NCBI GenBank assembly: GCA_001797815.1
Contig: MGQK01000121.1
Location: 24,641-37,805 of the forward strand
Source of the DNA: Deltaproteobacteria bacterium RBG_13_61_14
Lineage (GTDB): Bacteria; RBG-13-61-14
Length of the DNA stretch: 13,165 nucleotides
Direction: 5' to 3'
Part shown: piece by piece, positions 5,426-13,165 of the stretch
Layout: every line of letters begins with the position of its first letter
Position numbering within the stretch: the first letter of the stretch is position 1
Program-made: the position numbers and the translations under genes
The notes under the pieces: model-generated
What the model saw: only the letters and a program-made list of their open reading frames with translations
What the model was told of the DNA's origin: nothing
Databases searched by the model: none

Positions 5426-6046
5426 TTACTTCGGCCAGGTTTCCACGCGGAGGCGGACCCGGCCGCGCTCGACGTGAAAATCGGGAATCCGCCAGGGCTG
5501 GTGGGCCAGAGAGGGATCTTTCTCCAGCACCAGTTCCAGCAGGTGGCTGAGCTGGCCCAGGGCGACGCCCGGGCAGTCACAGGTGCCGAGGCGGAGCTTA
5601 CGGATCTGCACGTTGAAATCACCCTGCTCCGCTTTCACCGAAGCCTGGCCATCCAGGTTCAGCCATTTATCCTCGTTCCATTTCCGGGAAAAGCGAAGGT
5701 CCACGAGGTTGTCCGTCTCCAGGCCCAACTCGACCCGGATGGGACCCAGCCAGGGCGGAAGGTTGGAGCCCACGAGAGCGGTGAGTTCCTTGTCATCCAG
5801 CTTCAAGTCGAACTGGCCGCTCTGCTTTTCCAGGAGCGCCTGTCGAACGGGCTTGAGCTGGTGGGTCAGCAGCTTGTCACGGATCAGGCCCAACTCGGTC
5901 ACTTCGCTCACCAGGGGCGCGGGTTCCAGCAGACGGCGGGCGGCCCAGAAATAGGTGACGCCGGCGCCGATCATCGCGAGCAGGATGACCGCGAGCAAGA
6001 CGGGGAGCAGAACCAACTTCAGACATCCGGAGAGCAGACGGCGCAT
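5426..6046 (-). CDS. Membrane-anchored protein of unknown function
   Basis: I do not recognise this 206-residue protein. It has a positive N-terminus (MRR), one long hydrophobic helix at residues 9-33, then a soluble, probably extracytoplasmic domain. The domain has alternating beta-like segments (FDLKLDDKELTALV at 79-92, PIRVELGLETDNLVDLRF at 102-119, FNVQIRKLRL at 144-153) and a CDC pair at 156-158. The layout of one anchor followed by a beta-rich domain with an exposed LDDKELTALV-like helix is reminiscent of DUF2140/YpmS-type proteins, but this is only a resemblance. Cys8 is before the helix and is not a lipobox. Its ATG is 3 bp after the stop of the upstream gene, with GGTGA nearby, so the two are probably coupled and may act together at the membrane. 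Confidence 0.75.
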   Translation of the reverse strand: MRRLLSGCLKLVLLPVLLAVILLAMIGAGVTYFWAARRLLEPAPLVSEVTELGLIRDKLLTHQLKPVRQALLEKQSGQFDLKLDDKELTALVGSNLPPWLGPIRVELGLETDNLVDLRFSRKWNEDKWLNLDGQASVKAEQGDFNVQIRKLRLGTCDCPGVALGQLSHLLELVLEKDPSLAHQPWRIPDFHVERGRVRLRVETWPK

Positions 6047-6049
6047 GGT

Positions 6050-6787
6050 TTATTTCACCAATCCTTGTGCAAAATCGGGCAAGGAGAAGCCCAGGTAGAG
6101 ATCGTCATAAAAGACCTCGGCGCGGATCGGGGCGTCGGCCTTTTCCCGCTCATCGTAGCGGGCCTCGAAAAAGACATTGATCCGGTCCCACTCGGGGGGC
6201 ACATAGCCCCATTGGCTCTGGAAGGCCTCCCAGACATCCACGGCGAAGGGGGTCCACTGGCCCTGCACCGGCGCCGCTTTGGAGAAATGGATGTAGCGGA
6301 CGTTTTCCATCCGGGTGGGGCGGAAGGCGACTCCGCCCAGCAGGAAGCGCACCTGGAAGTTGTTCATGCCCGCGGCCGGCTTTTTTCGCCAGACGATAAT
6401 GACCGACTGGAGATACATGAGGGGCGTGCCCTGCTCCCAGGAGTTGACCCGATAGAAGCCGGCGAGGTAATGGGGAAACTCTTTGGGCCGGAGCTCCTGC
6501 ATCACGCCCCAGACCAGGGTCGAGCGGGCTGGGTCGTTCCGAACCTCCAGGTGCGCGGCCCGGCGGCCGGAATGGGCCTCCCGCCGGTCCACCTCGAACC
6601 CGGCCCAGTGTTCGGACCAGGTGGGATAACTCCACCCCCTGGCCCCGGATTCAAAATCGGCATTCACGAGTAAATTATCCTCGGGCAGTTCAATGCCCTG
6701 GCCCGGCCAAAACCACCAGACCGCGGCCCCTGCCCCGGCCAGGATCACGACCAGCACGGCCCATCCCCAGGCCGGAACTTTGCTCAT
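6050..6787 (-). CDS. Membrane-anchored protein with galactose-binding-like (carbohydrate-binding) domain
   Basis: This 245-residue protein has a single helix at residues 8-27 and a predicted extracytoplasmic domain. The opening NLLVNADFESGARGWSYPTW (39-57), then DRREAHSGRRAAHLEV (67-82) and the closing AEVFYDDLYLGF (223-234) follow the pattern of the CBM4/9-type galactose-binding-like jelly roll (N..F...GW, aHSG..s..., fDD..l). Such domains bind sugars or other surface ligands; no catalytic residues are evident. The tract LGGVAFRPTRMENVRYIHFSK between them is not recognisable as a known motif. No strong Shine-Dalgarno precedes the ATG at 6787. It follows the cyclic-nucleotide-binding gene after 51 bp and is almost joined to the next anchored gene, so a membrane partnership between the two is plausible (inference). 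Confidence 0.8.
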   Translation of the reverse strand: MSKVPAWGWAVLVVILAGAGAAVWWFWPGQGIELPEDNLLVNADFESGARGWSYPTWSEHWAGFEVDRREAHSGRRAAHLEVRNDPARSTLVWGVMQELRPKEFPHYLAGFYRVNSWEQGTPLMYLQSVIIVWRKKPAAGMNNFQVRFLLGGVAFRPTRMENVRYIHFSKAAPVQGQWTPFAVDVWEAFQSQWGYVPPEWDRINVFFEARYDEREKADAPIRAEVFYDDLYLGFSLPDFAQGLVK

Positions 6788-7343: not shown

Positions 7344-8780
7344 CTATCCCTTCAACACCGCCTTGGGCCGGAGCCGCGCCACCGGCCGGGCTAACCCGGC
7401 CTCCCGCACCACCTCGATCACCGCATCAATATCCTTGTAAGCCTGGGGCGCTTCCTCTTTGACCGAGCCCCGATCCTCGCAGACCAGGTAGATCCCCTCC
7501 ATCGCCCTCCGGAATTCCTCGTCCGAGATCGCGGCCGTCCGCTTCGGCTTGCCCCTTCTCCCGCGCTTGCCCGCGGCCGCGGTCCGGCTCATCACCCGGC
7601 CGGCGCCGTGGTTGACGGATGCCAGCGAGCACTCGCCCGCGTCGGTGCCGACCAGGAGGTAGCTGGCGGTGCCCATCGAGCCGGGGATCAGGATCGGCTG
7701 GCCCACCTCGGCAAAGGCCGTGCCCGCCATCCGCCCCGGCCCGAAAGCCCGGGTCGCGCCTTTGCGGTGGATGAGCAAGGTCTGGCCGTGGTGGCTCTCG
7801 AACTTGGCAATGTTATGGGGGACATCATACACCAAAGGCAGGGCAATGTCACCATAGTAATGCCGGAAATTCTTCTTGACCAGCGCCGCCATCAGGTGGC
7901 GGTTGGCAAAGGCAAAGTTGGCCGCGGCCGACATGGCCTGGAGATAATTCCGGCCTTCTTTGCTCTCGAGCGGCAGAAAGCAGAGGTTGTCGTTGGGCTG
8001 GCCTCCGCCGTGGCGATGGTCGTAGTCCCGGGAGAGGCGCATGTAATCGTCGCCCACCTGGTGGCCCAGACCCCGCGAGCCGGAATGGATCATCACCACC
8101 GCCTGGCCCGCGAACAGGCCGAAGCGCTGAGCGAGCTTGGGGTCATACACTTGCTCGACCAGCTGGATCTCGATGAAGTGATTGCCCCCGCCCAGGGTGG
8201 CCAGTTGGTCCTGGCCCCGGCTGAACGCGTGATGGGACACGGCTTCGACCCCGCCTTCCATGCTCCCGCGCTCTTCGATCTTCTCCAGCAACGGCCGCTC
8301 TTCGTCATCGCTCCAGGCCTCCCAGACCCGGTGGCCGGAATGCTTGACCCCGAACAGGGCCGACACCCCGCCCTCCAGCACCGCGGCAAAATCATCCTTG
8401 CCCAGGGCCACGTTGTGATGGCCTTCGCCCAGCGGGATATCGCGGCGGATGGAGTCGGCGAGCTGCTTGACGTCAATTTCCTCGAGCCGGAGCGGCGTAG
8501 TCAGCAGCCGCATGCCGCAGTTGATGTCATAGCCGACCGCGGCCGGCACCACGATCTCGCGGGTGGCCACGACCGAGCCGATGGGCACCCCATAGCCCTG
8601 GTGAATATCGGGCATGCCCAGGGCCTCGACCACGCTGGGCAGGGCACAGGCGGCTTTGAGCTGTTCAATGGCCGTCTCTTCCACCTGCATGCCCTCCCGG
8701 ATGAAAATCCGGGCCGGGATCTTCATCGGCGGCACCGCGGGGATCAATAATTCATTGGGGTTGAGGCGCGGCATGAGCAT
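7344..8780 (-). CDS. rtcB: RtcB family RNA ligase
   Basis: RtcB joins RNA 2',3'-cyclic phosphate or 3'-phosphate ends to 5'-OH ends through a guanylylated histidine, using GTP and Mn2+, in RNA repair or tRNA splicing. This protein has 478 residues from the first ATG, close to the longer RtcB form (about 480). Metal ligands are conserved: Asp85 and Cys88 in YDINCGMRLL, His201 in GGGNHFIEI, His232 in IHSGSRGLGH and His322 in VYDVPHNIAKFE. The guanylylated histidine is His391 in VNHGAGRVMSR. A basic insert AAAGKRGRRGKPKR follows at 401-414. The start could be 8780 (AGGAGG at 8791-8796, 10-nt spacing) or 8774; see the promoter entry. The frame is open upstream to 8858, but those codons give no RtcB-like sequence. 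No archease gene is in view. Confidence 0.96.
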   Translation of the reverse strand: MLMPRLNPNELLIPAVPPMKIPARIFIREGMQVEETAIEQLKAACALPSVVEALGMPDIHQGYGVPIGSVVATREIVVPAAVGYDINCGMRLLTTPLRLEEIDVKQLADSIRRDIPLGEGHHNVALGKDDFAAVLEGGVSALFGVKHSGHRVWEAWSDDEERPLLEKIEERGSMEGGVEAVSHHAFSRGQDQLATLGGGNHFIEIQLVEQVYDPKLAQRFGLFAGQAVVMIHSGSRGLGHQVGDDYMRLSRDYDHRHGGGQPNDNLCFLPLESKEGRNYLQAMSAAANFAFANRHLMAALVKKNFRHYYGDIALPLVYDVPHNIAKFESHHGQTLLIHRKGATRAFGPGRMAGTAFAEVGQPILIPGSMGTASYLLVGTDAGECSLASVNHGAGRVMSRTAAAGKRGRRGKPKRTAAISDEEFRRAMEGIYLVCEDRGSVKEEAPQAYKDIDAVIEVVREAGLARPVARLRPKAVLKG

Positions 8781-8781
8781 T

Positions 8782-8809
8782 ATGATAGAACCTCCTCGGA
8801 GGCTGTCAA
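8782..8809 (-). promoter_or_regulatory. Near-consensus sigma70 promoter overlapping the rtcB start
   Basis: On the minus strand TTGACA (8804-8809) and TATCAT (8782-8787) are 16 bp apart, matching the consensus at 11 of 12 positions. Transcription would begin at about 8775-8774, downstream of the first ATG (8780) and right at the second (8774), giving a leaderless mRNA. The AGGAGG at 8791-8796 lies inside the spacer, and would only be transcribed from a promoter further upstream. The two signals thus compete for the start assignment. Confidence 0.5.
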
Positions 8810-8851
8810 GGAAAGGCGGAGGAAAATCCAACCCTGGGGTGCCAGGTGGAA

Positions 8852-8892
8852 CAAACAAAAAAAGGGGAAAGGGCCATTGCCCTTCCCCCTTT
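8852..8892 (-). terminator. Rho-independent terminator of the first complete lipoprotein gene
   Basis: A 14-bp stem (8861-8874 with 8879-8892, one G-U pair in the minus-strand RNA) with a 4-nt loop is followed on the minus strand by a run of T (TTTTTTT then GTTTGT). It lies about 20 bp after the stop at 8914, and separates this gene from rtcB. Confidence 0.9.
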
Positions 8893-8913: not shown

Positions 8914-10614
8914 TTAGAAGGTCAGGTCGGTCAAGCGGGGAATATCATTCATGCCCAGGGCCTGGCAGTTCAATAGATCGGTCACCGACAAGGTCCGGGC
9001 CTGGGGATCTACTCTCACGGTTACTTTGCAGGGACTGTCGTTCTGCGGGTTCCCGCACTGATCCTGCTCGCCGTTGCCCTTCTCGTAGAAGCTGAAAACC
9101 GCGGTGAAGCCGGTGGCGTCGCTGTCTATCACGTTCACGCCCCAACCGCCGTGCTCATTGTGCAGGGAGACAATGGCGCTGCCGTCGGTGAATAAGAAAT
9201 CGCCGTCCTCGAAGTCAAAACCCCCGTTCAGCCGATACCGGCTCGTTGGCTGGGCCGGCCCGTCCTTGCCGTCCAGGTCCAAGGTTACTTGCAGCAGGTC
9301 AATCTCCATGCCATCGAAGTCGCCTTTGTTCAGCCCGCCCTGGGTGGTGCCGCGGGCGGGATTGCCGGCGGGGTCCAAGACCGTGTATTCCAGGCTCACT
9401 CCATTCAGGGTGACAAAGGGATTGGTGTCGGTGCTGGCGCTTCCGTCCTGGTCCCAGACCTGGGTGAGATTGTTGTAGCGGGTGTAGATCAATTGCTCGT
9501 TCAGGTCGGCCGAGGCGTGATGGATGGTCATGTTGCCGTTCAGGAACACGTCCAGCGGACCGGTGGTGGTGAACTGAGGATACTGGTGATAAGGATGCAG
9601 CAATTGGATCCGAAAAACCCAGGTCAGAGCGGTGGAAGTCGAGGGAAAGGTATCTTGGATATTAGAATCAACCCATAGGCCATAAACACAATTAACCTGG
9701 TTGGTAAAAGTGGGCGGGGTGGTCAAGGTAGTGCTGTCCGGGTTCCAGAAGGCACATGGCGCCAGCGCGGGAAAAGTGCAATCCATTTTTTGCATTAAAC
9801 TATGGGCCACTTCATTAACGGTCCCTTGCCCCATGATCACCGTGCAATAGGGATTGGCGGTAGTGAAGGATACCGCCGTGATGTTCCAGGCTTGCAGCTT
9901 GCCGATGGTGTCCTGGGTGGTGGTGTTGGTGCACCGAAAGGAACCCACGATATTGATGAAAATTGAGGTGGTTACAGTTCCCATCGACGGGGTCCAATAG
10001 AAAGGGTAAGCAATGGAGGTGACGTAACCAGCCGGCTGAAAGTTGGTGGCATAATAAAAAGCGGCGCTGGTGGCCACCTGGCAATCGGTGAACTTGACGG
10101 TGAAGCTGTTGCCGACCGAGGTGCAATTGACCTGGGTCGCCGCAGTCATGCACAGCCCGGTGCAGTTCGGGTCCGTGGCCGGATCGCACTTGTCTTCCAG
10201 GTAATCCGGGGTGCCGTCGCTGTCCGAGTCCTGCCGGCAGGGGTCGTTGTCCACGCTGGCCGCGGCCGAGCCCAGCGCCGCCAGTTGGGACCCGATCCCT
10301 TTCTTCCCGGGCAGCGGGGCCCAGAGGCCGGGGGTCAACTCATTCATCAGGCTCTGCACCGCGGCCTTCACGACCGCCGGGGTAACCGCGCCCAGGAGTT
10401 GCGTGGCTTCATGCGAGCCGCCGGCCGCGGCCGCGGTGGCTTTGGGATCGTTCGCCACTCCGGGCGTCACCGGTCCGAACTGCCGGTCCACCGACCGGGC
10501 CACGCCGGCGCCCATCCAGCCGCCGCCCCCGCCCCCGCCGCCTTCACCCTTGCAGGCCGGGAGCAGGAAGAGCAAAAGGCATAGCGCCCCTAACCCGACT
10601 ACCAACTTCTTCAT
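8914..10614 (-). CDS. Tandem-family lipoprotein A: Gly8 linker, TSP3-like calcium motif
   Basis: This 566-residue secreted lipoprotein starts MKKLVVGLGALCLLLFLLPAC; Cys21 in LPAC is the lipidation site. The mature protein begins with KGE and eight glycines, a flexible tether. Residues 124-155 carry DPCRQDSDSDGTPDYLEDKCD and DPNCTGLC, an Asp-rich loop like thrombospondin type 3 / calcium-binding repeats with flanking cysteines. The centre (about 160-400) is Ser/Thr/aromatic-rich with several cysteines and no recognised domain. The conserved C-terminal block (about 507-566) contains FYEKGNGEQDQCGNPQNDSPC and ends NCQAL...LTDLTF. No catalytic motif is visible; a surface adhesin or structural role is only a guess. 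The start has AAGGAGG 6 bases upstream. Own promoter and terminator flank it. The stretch encoding the centre, about 9590-10060, looks richer in A+T than the rest. Homologous to the two genes upstream. Confidence 0.88.
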   Translation of the reverse strand: MKKLVVGLGALCLLLFLLPACKGEGGGGGGGGWMGAGVARSVDRQFGPVTPGVANDPKATAAAAGGSHEATQLLGAVTPAVVKAAVQSLMNELTPGLWAPLPGKKGIGSQLAALGSAAASVDNDPCRQDSDSDGTPDYLEDKCDPATDPNCTGLCMTAATQVNCTSVGNSFTVKFTDCQVATSAAFYYATNFQPAGYVTSIAYPFYWTPSMGTVTTSIFINIVGSFRCTNTTTQDTIGKLQAWNITAVSFTTANPYCTVIMGQGTVNEVAHSLMQKMDCTFPALAPCAFWNPDSTTLTTPPTFTNQVNCVYGLWVDSNIQDTFPSTSTALTWVFRIQLLHPYHQYPQFTTTGPLDVFLNGNMTIHHASADLNEQLIYTRYNNLTQVWDQDGSASTDTNPFVTLNGVSLEYTVLDPAGNPARGTTQGGLNKGDFDGMEIDLLQVTLDLDGKDGPAQPTSRYRLNGGFDFEDGDFLFTDGSAIVSLHNEHGGWGVNVIDSDATGFTAVFSFYEKGNGEQDQCGNPQNDSPCKVTVRVDPQARTLSVTDLLNCQALGMNDIPRLTDLTF

Positions 10615-10700
10615 CAGACTCCTCCTTCTTCCCTATCCTCGAAATGCTTTGGCTCGGCCGGAGTCGCTTTGCCGGGGCCGCGCGGCCGAGAGTCCCCTTT

Positions 10701-10730
10701 ATCATAGGAAGAGTGGACGGCAGTTGTCAA
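10701..10730 (-). promoter_or_regulatory. Sigma70-type promoter of lipoprotein A
   Basis: On the minus strand TTGACA (10725-10730) and TATGAT (10701-10706) are separated by 18 bp. The surrounding 47 bp (10684-10730) match the promoter block of gene B (12792-12838) at 40 positions, far more than the leaders downstream. The predicted start is near 10694, leaving a leader of about 80 nt. Confidence 0.85.
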
Positions 10731-10741
10731 CCCCCAAGGGG

Positions 10742-10990
10742 GCTGACCGTCTATCACCTTTTTTTCAGAGAGAAACCACAGATTTCGCAGAGCTCCTGGA
10801 TCGGCCAGAGGGAAGCCGCGGAGAAGATTCGGCGTCATCCCATAAAAATTTTTCCTTTCCCCATTTCCGCCTCGCCTGGGGCCTTCGGAGAGATTAAGAA
10901 AAGATTTCACAGACCGGATTGGCCTAAACCCTTGGCCTGCTTCTGCGTAATCGGTGGTTTTCTTTCATAACAAACCGATATACGGTCAGC
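10742..10990. mobile_element. MITE-like element, 249 bp, with about 51-bp imperfect terminal inverted repeats
   Basis: The ends read GCTGACCGTCTATC (10742-10755) and, reverse-complemented, GCTGACCGTATATC (10977-10990), 13/14 identical. The match continues imperfectly inward to 39 of 51 bases without gaps (10742-10792 against 10940-10990) and includes an ACCACAGATT / AATCGGTGGT core. CAAGGGG (10735-10741) and AAAGGGG (10991-10997) flank it, a possible 7-bp target duplication with one mismatch. It has no transposase gene. At the paralogous junction 12793-12871 nothing is inserted. Confidence 0.72.
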
Positions 10991-10993
10991 AAA

Positions 10994-11019
10994 GGGGGAA
11001 GGGACCAAACCCTTTCCCC
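10994..11019 (-). terminator. Hairpin after lipoprotein B, a weak or displaced terminator
   Basis: A 10-bp stem (10994-11003 with 11010-11019, one A-C mismatch on the minus-strand RNA) and a 6-nt loop lie 23 bp after the gene B stop. It is related to the terminators of the two other copies, but no T-run follows it: next comes the 249-bp element. Termination here is therefore doubtful. Confidence 0.5.
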
Positions 11020-11042
11020 AAAGAAGAGCCGAGAAGCCGGAG

Positions 11043-12716
11043 TTAGAAGGTCAAGCCGGTGAGGTCGGCGATGTCCCCCACGTCCAGGGCCTGGCAGTTG
11101 CTGACCTGGGTTACATCCAGGGTGCGCAGTTTCGGGTCCAGCTCGATGGTGACCTGGCACGGATCATTCTGCGGGTCCCCGCACTTGTCCGCCTCGCCGT
11201 TGCCTTCCTCGAAGAAGCTCAGGATCCAGATCTGCTTTCCGGCCGCGCTCTTGCCGGCAAAGTGGATGCCATCATACCCGTGCTTATCGTTCACCGAGAC
11301 CATGGCGCTGCCGGCGCTGAACACAAAGAGGCCGTCTTCGTTGTCCCGGCCCTCATCCAGCAGGTAGGTGGCGGTTTCCCAGACCGGCCCTTGCTCGCCG
11401 TCCATGTCCGCGACCACCAGCCGGCGATCAATCTCCATCCCGTCCAGCGGGCCTTTGCCCGCGCCGCCAAAAGTGGTGCCATGGGCGGAATTCCCGTCGG
11501 CATCCAGCACCCGGTATTCCATGGTCTGGCCGTTGAAGGTGAGAAAGGGATCGGTGCCGGTGTCCAAGACTTCATCCCGGCTCCAGAGCTGGGTGAAGTT
11601 GTCATAGCGGATGCCCAGCACCTGCTCGTTCACCCCGCCCTGGCCGTTGTGCAAGGTGACCGAGCCGTCCAGGATGATCTTGACCGGATTTATCTGGGTG
11701 CCGACCAGGGTGCCGCCCAGGTAGGTCCAGACGGGAACCGGATTTCCGGGTTGGTGGATGACGAGCGTGAAGGGACCCGGAGGGACCGTGGTCAAGTCCG
11801 CCCACTGACCCAAAGCGCATTGCACCGTCTCGAACCAGGTCTGGAAAGGACTGGTAATGGTGCTGCTGGCCGGATTCCAAAAGGCGCAAGCGACCGGGGT
11901 CATGGTGCTTCCGGACTTTCGGAGGACAAAATCATGAGCGACACCGTCCGCGGTCCCGGGACTCCCGGTATACCATCCCCTCAGCCGGCCGACGGTGCCC
12001 CGGGTGGTGGTATGGGAACAGCCTTGGGCGGTATAGAGATAAGTCGTCTGGACGATGGTCAGGGTCGTGCTCAAGTTGAGAGTCTGGAACGTGGTCAGGG
12101 TGGAGAGGAACCGGGTGGAAATCCAGGACCCGCCGTTGAAAGTGGTCACGTTCACCTGGCAGTCGCTGAACTTGACGGTGAAGCCCGCGCCGGAGCTCAA
12201 GCACTCCGCCGCCTCCGGCCCCGGGTTAAAACACAGGCCGGTGCAGTTCGGGTCCGTGACCGGGTCGCACTTGTCCTCCAGGTAGTCGGGCATGCCGTCG
12301 TTGTCCGAGTCCTGCCGGCAAGGGTCGCTCGAAAGGCCCGCGGCAAAAGCGAGCGCCAGGAGCGGGTTCGCGATTCCGGGCTTGGGAAAGAGCCCCCGGT
12401 TGACTGGGTCGTTTTCCCAGCCCAGCGGCGCAAACCGGGAGGCGAGATTCGCGGCCGCGTCCAGGATCACCTTGGGGTTGACCGCGCCCTGGAGCCGGGT
12501 GGCCTCGTGGGACCCGCCGCCCCCGGCCGCGATCTCGGCCGGAAGGTTGGAATCCACCACGGTGATCGGCCCGAACTGCTCATCCACCGACCGGGCCAGG
12601 CCGGCGCCCAGCCATTCGTCGCCCCCGCCGCCCCCGCCGCCGCCCGGGCAGGCCGGGAGCAGGAACAATAGAAAGCACAGCGTCCAGAACCCGACTACCA
12701 CTCTCTTCATCTTCAT
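11043..12716 (-). CDS. Tandem-family lipoprotein B: Gly8 linker, TSP3-like calcium motif
   Basis: This 557-residue paralogue of lipoprotein A has the signal MKMKRVVVGFWTLCFLLFLL then PAC, with Cys23 as the lipidation site, followed by P and eight glycines. Shared blocks are DEQFGP, SHEATRLQGAV, the calcium motif at 131-162 (DSDNDGMPDYLEDKCD, DPNCTGLC), FTVKFSDCQV, CAFWNPASSTIT, RYDNFTQLW, KGPLDGMEID and the C-terminal block 499-557 (EEGNGEADKCGDPQND, SNCQAL, LTGLTF). Between these the centre differs strongly from A. No enzyme motif is seen; exported surface protein of unknown role. The start at 12716 aligns at the DNA level with that of A (GGAG then four bases then ATGAAG); 12710 is the alternative and aligns better at the protein level. 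The frame is open up to 12776, but those codons would add residues before the signal peptide. Confidence 0.88.
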   Translation of the reverse strand: MKMKRVVVGFWTLCFLLFLLPACPGGGGGGGGDEWLGAGLARSVDEQFGPITVVDSNLPAEIAAGGGGSHEATRLQGAVNPKVILDAAANLASRFAPLGWENDPVNRGLFPKPGIANPLLALAFAAGLSSDPCRQDSDNDGMPDYLEDKCDPVTDPNCTGLCFNPGPEAAECLSSGAGFTVKFSDCQVNVTTFNGGSWISTRFLSTLTTFQTLNLSTTLTIVQTTYLYTAQGCSHTTTRGTVGRLRGWYTGSPGTADGVAHDFVLRKSGSTMTPVACAFWNPASSTITSPFQTWFETVQCALGQWADLTTVPPGPFTLVIHQPGNPVPVWTYLGGTLVGTQINPVKIILDGSVTLHNGQGGVNEQVLGIRYDNFTQLWSRDEVLDTGTDPFLTFNGQTMEYRVLDADGNSAHGTTFGGAGKGPLDGMEIDRRLVVADMDGEQGPVWETATYLLDEGRDNEDGLFVFSAGSAMVSVNDKHGYDGIHFAGKSAAGKQIWILSFFEEGNGEADKCGDPQNDPCQVTIELDPKLRTLDVTQVSNCQALDVGDIADLTGLTF

Positions 12717-12808
12717 CGCACTCCTTACTCCTGTTTCCATTTTACTCGCCAGGCGCCGGCTCCACTGGAATTGCACCCGCTTCTGCCACTCGGCCGAGAA
12801 TCGCCTTT

Positions 12809-12838
12809 ATCATATGCAGGGTGGAATGCAGTTGTCAA
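12809..12838 (-). promoter_or_regulatory. Sigma70-type promoter of lipoprotein B
   Basis: TTGACA (12833-12838) and TATGAT (12809-12814) on the minus strand are 18 bp apart, as in gene A. The -35 box touches the T-run of the upstream terminator, so the intergenic region is minimal. Confidence 0.87.
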
Positions 12839-12871
12839 TAAAAAGGGGAAAGGGCCGAAGCCCTTTCCCCT
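12839..12871 (-). terminator. Rho-independent terminator with UUCG tetraloop, after lipoprotein C
   Basis: A perfect 12-bp stem (12844-12855 with 12860-12871) closes on a loop that reads TTCG on the minus strand, with C and G next to it, the very stable cUUCGg tetraloop. It is followed by TTTTATTG, whose last bases run into the -35 box of gene B. Confidence 0.93.
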
Positions 12872-12894
12872 GGAAAGACTCAGTCAGGTCTGAG

Positions 12895-13165
12895 TTAGAA
12901 AGCCACGCCGGTCAGGCTGGGAATGTCCGCCGCGTCCAGGAGTTGGCAGGCAGCGCTGATCGAAAGCACGTCGAACTCCCGCATTTCCGGATCCACTTCC
13001 ACGTTGATCCGGCAGGGGGTCTTGTTCTGGGGCACGCTGCACTTGTCATTCTCGGTGTTGCCCTTCTCGTAGAAGCTCAGCGCATAGATCGGGTTCCCGG
13101 CCGCGGTCGCGCCCACCAGGCGCCAGCCGCCGAAGCCCAGGGAAGGCCACTGCGGTCCAAACGCG
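12895..13165 (-). CDS. Tandem-family lipoprotein C, C-terminal fragment (runs off window end)
   Basis: The frame is open from the stop at 12895-12897 to the window edge (90 codons). It shows the family's C-terminal block: LSFYEKGNTENDKCSVPQNK, then PCRINVEVDPEMREFDVLSI, CQLLDAADIPSLTGVAF. It is upstream of gene B in the same direction and is the third member of the array. A GTG at 13116-13114 is in frame, but is internal: homologous residues (FGGWRLVGATAAGN) continue upstream of it, comparable to the GYDGIHFAGKSAAGK stretch of B. The N-terminal lipobox, Gly run and calcium motif are beyond the edge, so lipidation of this copy is inferred from its paralogues. Confidence 0.85.
   Translation of the reverse strand, partial: AFGPQWPSLGFGGWRLVGATAAGNPIYALSFYEKGNTENDKCSVPQNKTPCRINVEVDPEMREFDVLSISAACQLLDAADIPSLTGVAF

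Follow-up and report, generated by a model that had tools for sequence, protein, structure and literature searches.

Three paralogous genes at the end of a contig

The window, the whole stretch of 13,165 nucleotides that was analysed (G000:C121:24641-37805), is the right-hand end of contig C121 and ends with the contig itself (37805 of 37805). The host genome, from a poorly sampled phylum, is 4.74 Mb in 132 contigs and 95% complete. Three lipoprotein genes (P1, P2 and P3, Table 1) are transcribed from the minus strand in the order P3, P2, P1, followed by rtcB. P1 and P2 are complete and encode proteins of 566 and 555 aa, with ATG 12710 the most likely start of P2 in preference to GTG 12776. 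P3 is incomplete because the window stops at the end of the contig. P1 and P2 aligned over their full length (BLAST E about 1e-137, 49% identity over aligned residues) and the 89 residues of P3 matched P2 at E about 1e-20, far beyond chance, confirming the three adjacent same-strand paralogues described in an earlier note on this DNA. In P1 the lipobox LPAC (Cys21) is followed by KGE and eight glycines; then come an N region, a Cys/Asp motif, a middle rich in Thr and, at the C terminus, a domain rich in Asp and Gly. P2 has LPAC, P and eight glycines with the rest arranged as in P1. Elsewhere in the window, two neighbouring minus-strand genes at 5426-6787 (206 and 245 aa, no Pfam match) lie close to a DUF3467 gene.

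Table 1. Coordinates of the array and its features in the window
Feature	Position	Strand	Description
rtcB	7344-8858	-	downstream of P1; Pfam RtcB E 1e-136
P1 terminator-like hairpin and T-run	8861..8892	-	-26.7 kcal/mol, z -3.2
P1	8914..10614	-	complete lipoprotein gene; ORF and paralogy
P1 Cys-rich block with Asp motif (DPCRQDSDSDGTPDYLEDKCDPATDPNCTGLC region)	10154..10246	-	83% protein identity to P2; DNA repeat D4 90%
P1 promoter-like TTGACA-18-TATGAT	10701..10730	-	83% identity to P2 over a 54-nt block
P2 hairpin, weaker, short T-run	10989..11020	-	z -1.7; absent from terminator scan
P2	11043..12710	-	complete lipoprotein gene; ORF and paralogy
P2 Cys-rich block with Asp motif	12231..12327	-	DNA repeat and dN/dS comparison with P1
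P2 promoter-like TTGACA-18-TATGAT	12809..12838	-	pattern and shared 54-nt block
P3 terminator-like hairpin and T-run	12844..12871	-	-24.7 kcal/mol, z -4.4; ends just before P2 -35
P3	12895..13165	-	C-terminal 89 codons of third copy; ORF and paralogy

The promoter-like sites of P1 and P2 lie in a 54-nt block identical at 45 of 54 positions, and the only exact genome-wide matches to TTGACA-18-TATGATAAAG were these two sites. TTGACA-type sites were also read upstream of the copies on contigs C124 and C83 described below. Sequence similarity links the hairpins of all three genes, those of P1 and P3 being strong. An operon reading was rejected as the genes carry separate promoter-like and terminator-like sites, and duplication of single-gene units is the best reading of the array.

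Further copies and the search for relatives

The genome was searched using a profile built from four family members. Full copies were detected on C124, adjoining a signal peptidase S26 gene, and on C83, adjoining a gene identified as thioredoxin-like by reading the sequence. Positions 5-343 of C65, a contig that starts inside the gene, hold an N-terminal fragment of a family member. Its orientation fits an arrangement in which C65 follows C121, and this fragment and P3 cover complementary portions of a single protein, leaving a gap of about 70 residues; no sequence overlap was found between the C121 end and the C65 start. P3 and the C65 fragment are likely one gene, in which case the genome would have five copies, in three places. 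No further copy came from a C-terminal profile run at E 10. The expanded lipoprotein family proposed in the earlier note, which had suggested such a profile search and copy count, was thus borne out by the copies on C124, C83 and C65.

Profile searches of 386 genomes found the family in its own genome only, with no copy in two other species of the same phylum (both of another family) and no relative in 383 further sampled genomes. Plasmids, viral contigs and GTDB contigs gave no relative outside the host genome; the contig scans started from short seed peptides, with which remote relatives can be overlooked. Nothing above cut-off was found in Pfam, NCBIfam, PHROGs or PDB sequences and no described family matched over the full length, in agreement with the earlier failure to place the proteins in a named family. 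On these searches this is a real, lineage-restricted orphan family with no detectable relative elsewhere, a new and apparently narrowly restricted version of a familiar type of envelope lipoprotein.

Predicted lipid-anchor end, Cys/Asp block and C-terminal domain

The lipobox was read as LLPAC in P1 and P2, LLPGC in C65 and LAAGC in C83, and the C124 copy has a GGGC site. The signal peptide and lipobox Cys that characterize bacterial lipoproteins are both predicted in P1, P2, C65 and C83. LspA, LolA and several Omp85 proteins are encoded in the genome (all above cut-off). The organism therefore has a pathway for lipoproteins and an outer membrane, which makes outer-membrane anchoring of the family proteins likely; their display on the surface is plausible. 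The lipobox Cys and the eight glycines reported earlier are both present in P1 and P2, but the run does not directly follow the Cys (C-P-G8-DEW in P2, C-K-G-E-G8-W in P1). The segment after the glycine stretch is conserved (EWLGAGLARSVDxQFGP), and the stretch itself is missing in the C83 copy.

In this genome glycine runs habitually follow the lipid Cys, in unrelated lipoproteins too. A protein of 678 aa with the motif HEYAH and several lipoproteins resembling YadA have one, and the run was rejected as a family marker. Such runs are described as frequent in Neisseria and other lipoproteins, and surface display of Neisseria fHbp persisted after its run was removed (PMC5500766). The occurrence in unrelated lipoproteins and the fHbp result together mean that the run is no proof of surface export. 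Neisseria fHbp and NHBA resemble the family in having a lipobox Cys and then a glycine stretch (PMC5500766). They differ in glycine number (four there, eight here) and in a body without family or sequence match. For the Slam translocator (PF04575), neither the host genome nor any of 14 control genomes gave a match.

Three further tandem lipoproteins of the genome, at G000:C121:204-4453 (L023:204-4453), carry SVSGGxxNTASG repeats resembling YadA heads in addition to glycines behind the lipid Cys, with no anchor domain seen, and one more YadA-repeat-like lipoprotein with a glycine run is on C99 (L055). The 678-aa lipoprotein (L061:1002-3038, C118) carries CDTGDGGGGGGGG and then a proline run; its HEYAH motif suggests a metallopeptidase, and NCBIfam gave no match worth naming. 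A 408-aa protein with TSP3-like motifs (L060:1872-3098, C74) ends in a C-terminal Gly/Ser run, Cys, a hydrophobic stretch and RRRR, and its MYXO-CTERM match was sub-threshold (15.8 of 20 bits). A protein at L021:986-2833 has a similar GGGCG end, and the two ends suggest a C-terminal sorting system.

The Cys/Asp block contains four invariant Cys surrounding a DxDxDGxxD motif. Neither the D-x-D-x-D-G core nor these Cys, which lie in the N-terminal half, vary among the 4/4 full copies. The Asp motif reads DSDNDGMPDYLEDKCD in P2, the motif quoted in the earlier note being that of P1. That note called the motif TSP3-like, and while an Asp-rich motif with cysteines is present, the profile did not assign it to TSP3: each protein has a single motif in place of the tandem repeats of the bacterial TSP3 family PF18884, P2 scored 14.1-14.3 bits against a cut-off of 25, and no match was listed for P1. 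The DxDxDGxPDYLEDKCD pattern is common to PF18884 and the family over 13 aligned positions, at 14 bits against 25 for the single copy. The motif is probably a site for metal-ion binding, with calcium as one candidate, and a calcium-binding loop is likely despite the sub-cut-off profile score. An Asp-rich calcium-type motif in an envelope protein is also seen in myxobacterial TraB (layout from PMC6372800), and a likeness to the TSP3-bearing envelope proteins CglD and MtsD is drawn from their NCBIfam names alone. In place of repeats, the family proteins have one motif that scores under the Pfam TSP3_bac cut-off, and they do not match those families. A weak match to the block (E 0.007) was seen at G000:C34:10106-10261, within a 4,768-codon open frame.

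TSP3 and a lipobox occur in secreted carbohydrases of Saccharophagus (PMC2386152), and the genome has the glycine-linked HEYAH-motif lipoprotein, both of which would suit extracellular enzymes (hydrolases, for instance) held by a lipid anchor and with a body stabilised by calcium. However, no enzyme family was matched and the invariant columns hold no obvious catalytic set, and we regard an enzymatic role as very improbable.

Asp and Gly are abundant in the C-terminal domain, in which the motifs DGM, DxDG and EDG are invariant. The conserved C-terminal block reported earlier is present in P1, P2 and P3, but it varies between copies, reading EEGNGEADKCGDPQND-PC in P2 and EKGNTENDKCSVPQNKTPC in P3, with NCQAL replaced by AACQLL in P3. 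Structure prediction, also proposed in the earlier note, was run with AlphaFold on alignments of the window's own two to three rows and gave no confident model (pLDDT 28.9 and 41.2). A Foldseek search with the low-confidence model returned no match better than E 0.4. With such low pLDDT there is therefore no fold to back a binding role.

The Thr-rich middle and the proposed role

The middle contains 17-27% Thr and 0-3% Glu and Lys, and measures 179 residues in P1, 162 in P2, 103 in C124 and 63 in C83; it is absent in C65. Identity between the middles of P1 and P2 is 33%, with 54 gap columns, as compared to about 51% elsewhere outside the Cys block (Fisher p 0.0003). The two are still homologous (E 3e-15), so within the tandem array the middle has diverged and not been swapped. 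The C124 and C83 middles gave no significant match to those of P1 and P2, while both flanks matched clearly. The fixed ends and variable middle of the earlier note are therefore supported by the C124 and C83 copies.

For P1 versus P2 the overall dN/dS (Nei-Gojobori) was 0.53. It was lowest in the Cys block (0.17) and reached 1.1 in a 29-residue piece before the middle, while the middle itself gave 0.48 and the C-terminal domain 0.4 to 0.7. These rates fit weak constraint on the middle. Selection for diversity is not demonstrated because they come from a single paralogue pair with a dS of about 1.4 in the middle. The earlier note had likened the proteins to adhesins or self/non-self surface proteins. 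As ligand-variable adhesins or recognition proteins of that sort, they would have a middle under selection for diversity. Fixed ends with a variable middle, the higher ratios outside the Cys block and the three tandem YadA-like lipoproteins on the same contig would suit such a role. Against it, ratios below one from one pair also fit relaxed constraint, one middle is common to P1 and P2, and no recombination or switching signal was seen in the one genome of the species compared. Pfam gave no match to YadA head, stalk or anchor domains in P1, P2 or P3, so the proteins do not qualify as trimeric autotransporters. Nothing was found for either role, which we consider improbable.

In C65 the N-terminal segment joins GGVDEQ of the C-terminal domain directly and both the Cys/Asp block and the middle are missing. 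The junction DNA GGCGGCGGGGTGGACGAG resembles both GGCGGCGGGTCC and GGGCGGGGTGAACGAG of P2, and this form would be explained if sequence between short GC-rich repeats had been deleted in frame. Alternatively, the middle-less form could be an assembly fault at the contig edge. A copy lacking the middle, weak constraint on the middle between P1 and P2, the presence of LolA and the absence of a surface translocator match (PF04575, likewise unmatched in the control genomes) are consistent with periplasm-facing outer-membrane lipoproteins, structural or substrate-holding, in which the middle would be a tolerated, fast-evolving spacer. This reading is at odds with a family found in one genome only, as one-genome families are generally more usual among surface proteins than among periplasmic housekeeping ones. 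We consider it unlikely, though less so than the adhesin role.

The explanation we favour, at about even odds, is a lineage-restricted family of outer-membrane-anchored lipoproteins, most likely binding or structural proteins of the cell surface with the variable middle as the exposed part. Signal peptidase II would cleave ahead of the lipobox Cys, the Lol route would deliver the protein to the outer membrane, and the glycine-rich tether would hold the Cys-containing body away from the membrane. This body would comprise the conserved, putatively metal-binding Cys/Asp motif, the near-uncharged Thr-rich middle of variable length and the conserved Asp/Gly-rich C-terminal domain. Whole promoter-gene-terminator units would have been duplicated and then diverged, chiefly in the middle. 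A bolder form of this proposal, which we offer tentatively and hold to be doubtful, is an undescribed surface-lipoprotein family of duplicated promoter-gene-terminator cassettes. Between ends that stay constant, the Thr-rich middle would be dropped, reduced or exchanged, so that the cell displays several different modules on a single chassis.

The family alone would leave current views unchanged. Orphan envelope lipoproteins make up a large share of the unreadable content in genomes of poorly sampled lineages, and here they form a small group of paralogues whose ends are constant and whose middle is apparently dispensable, providing natural long, short and middle-less copies for comparison.
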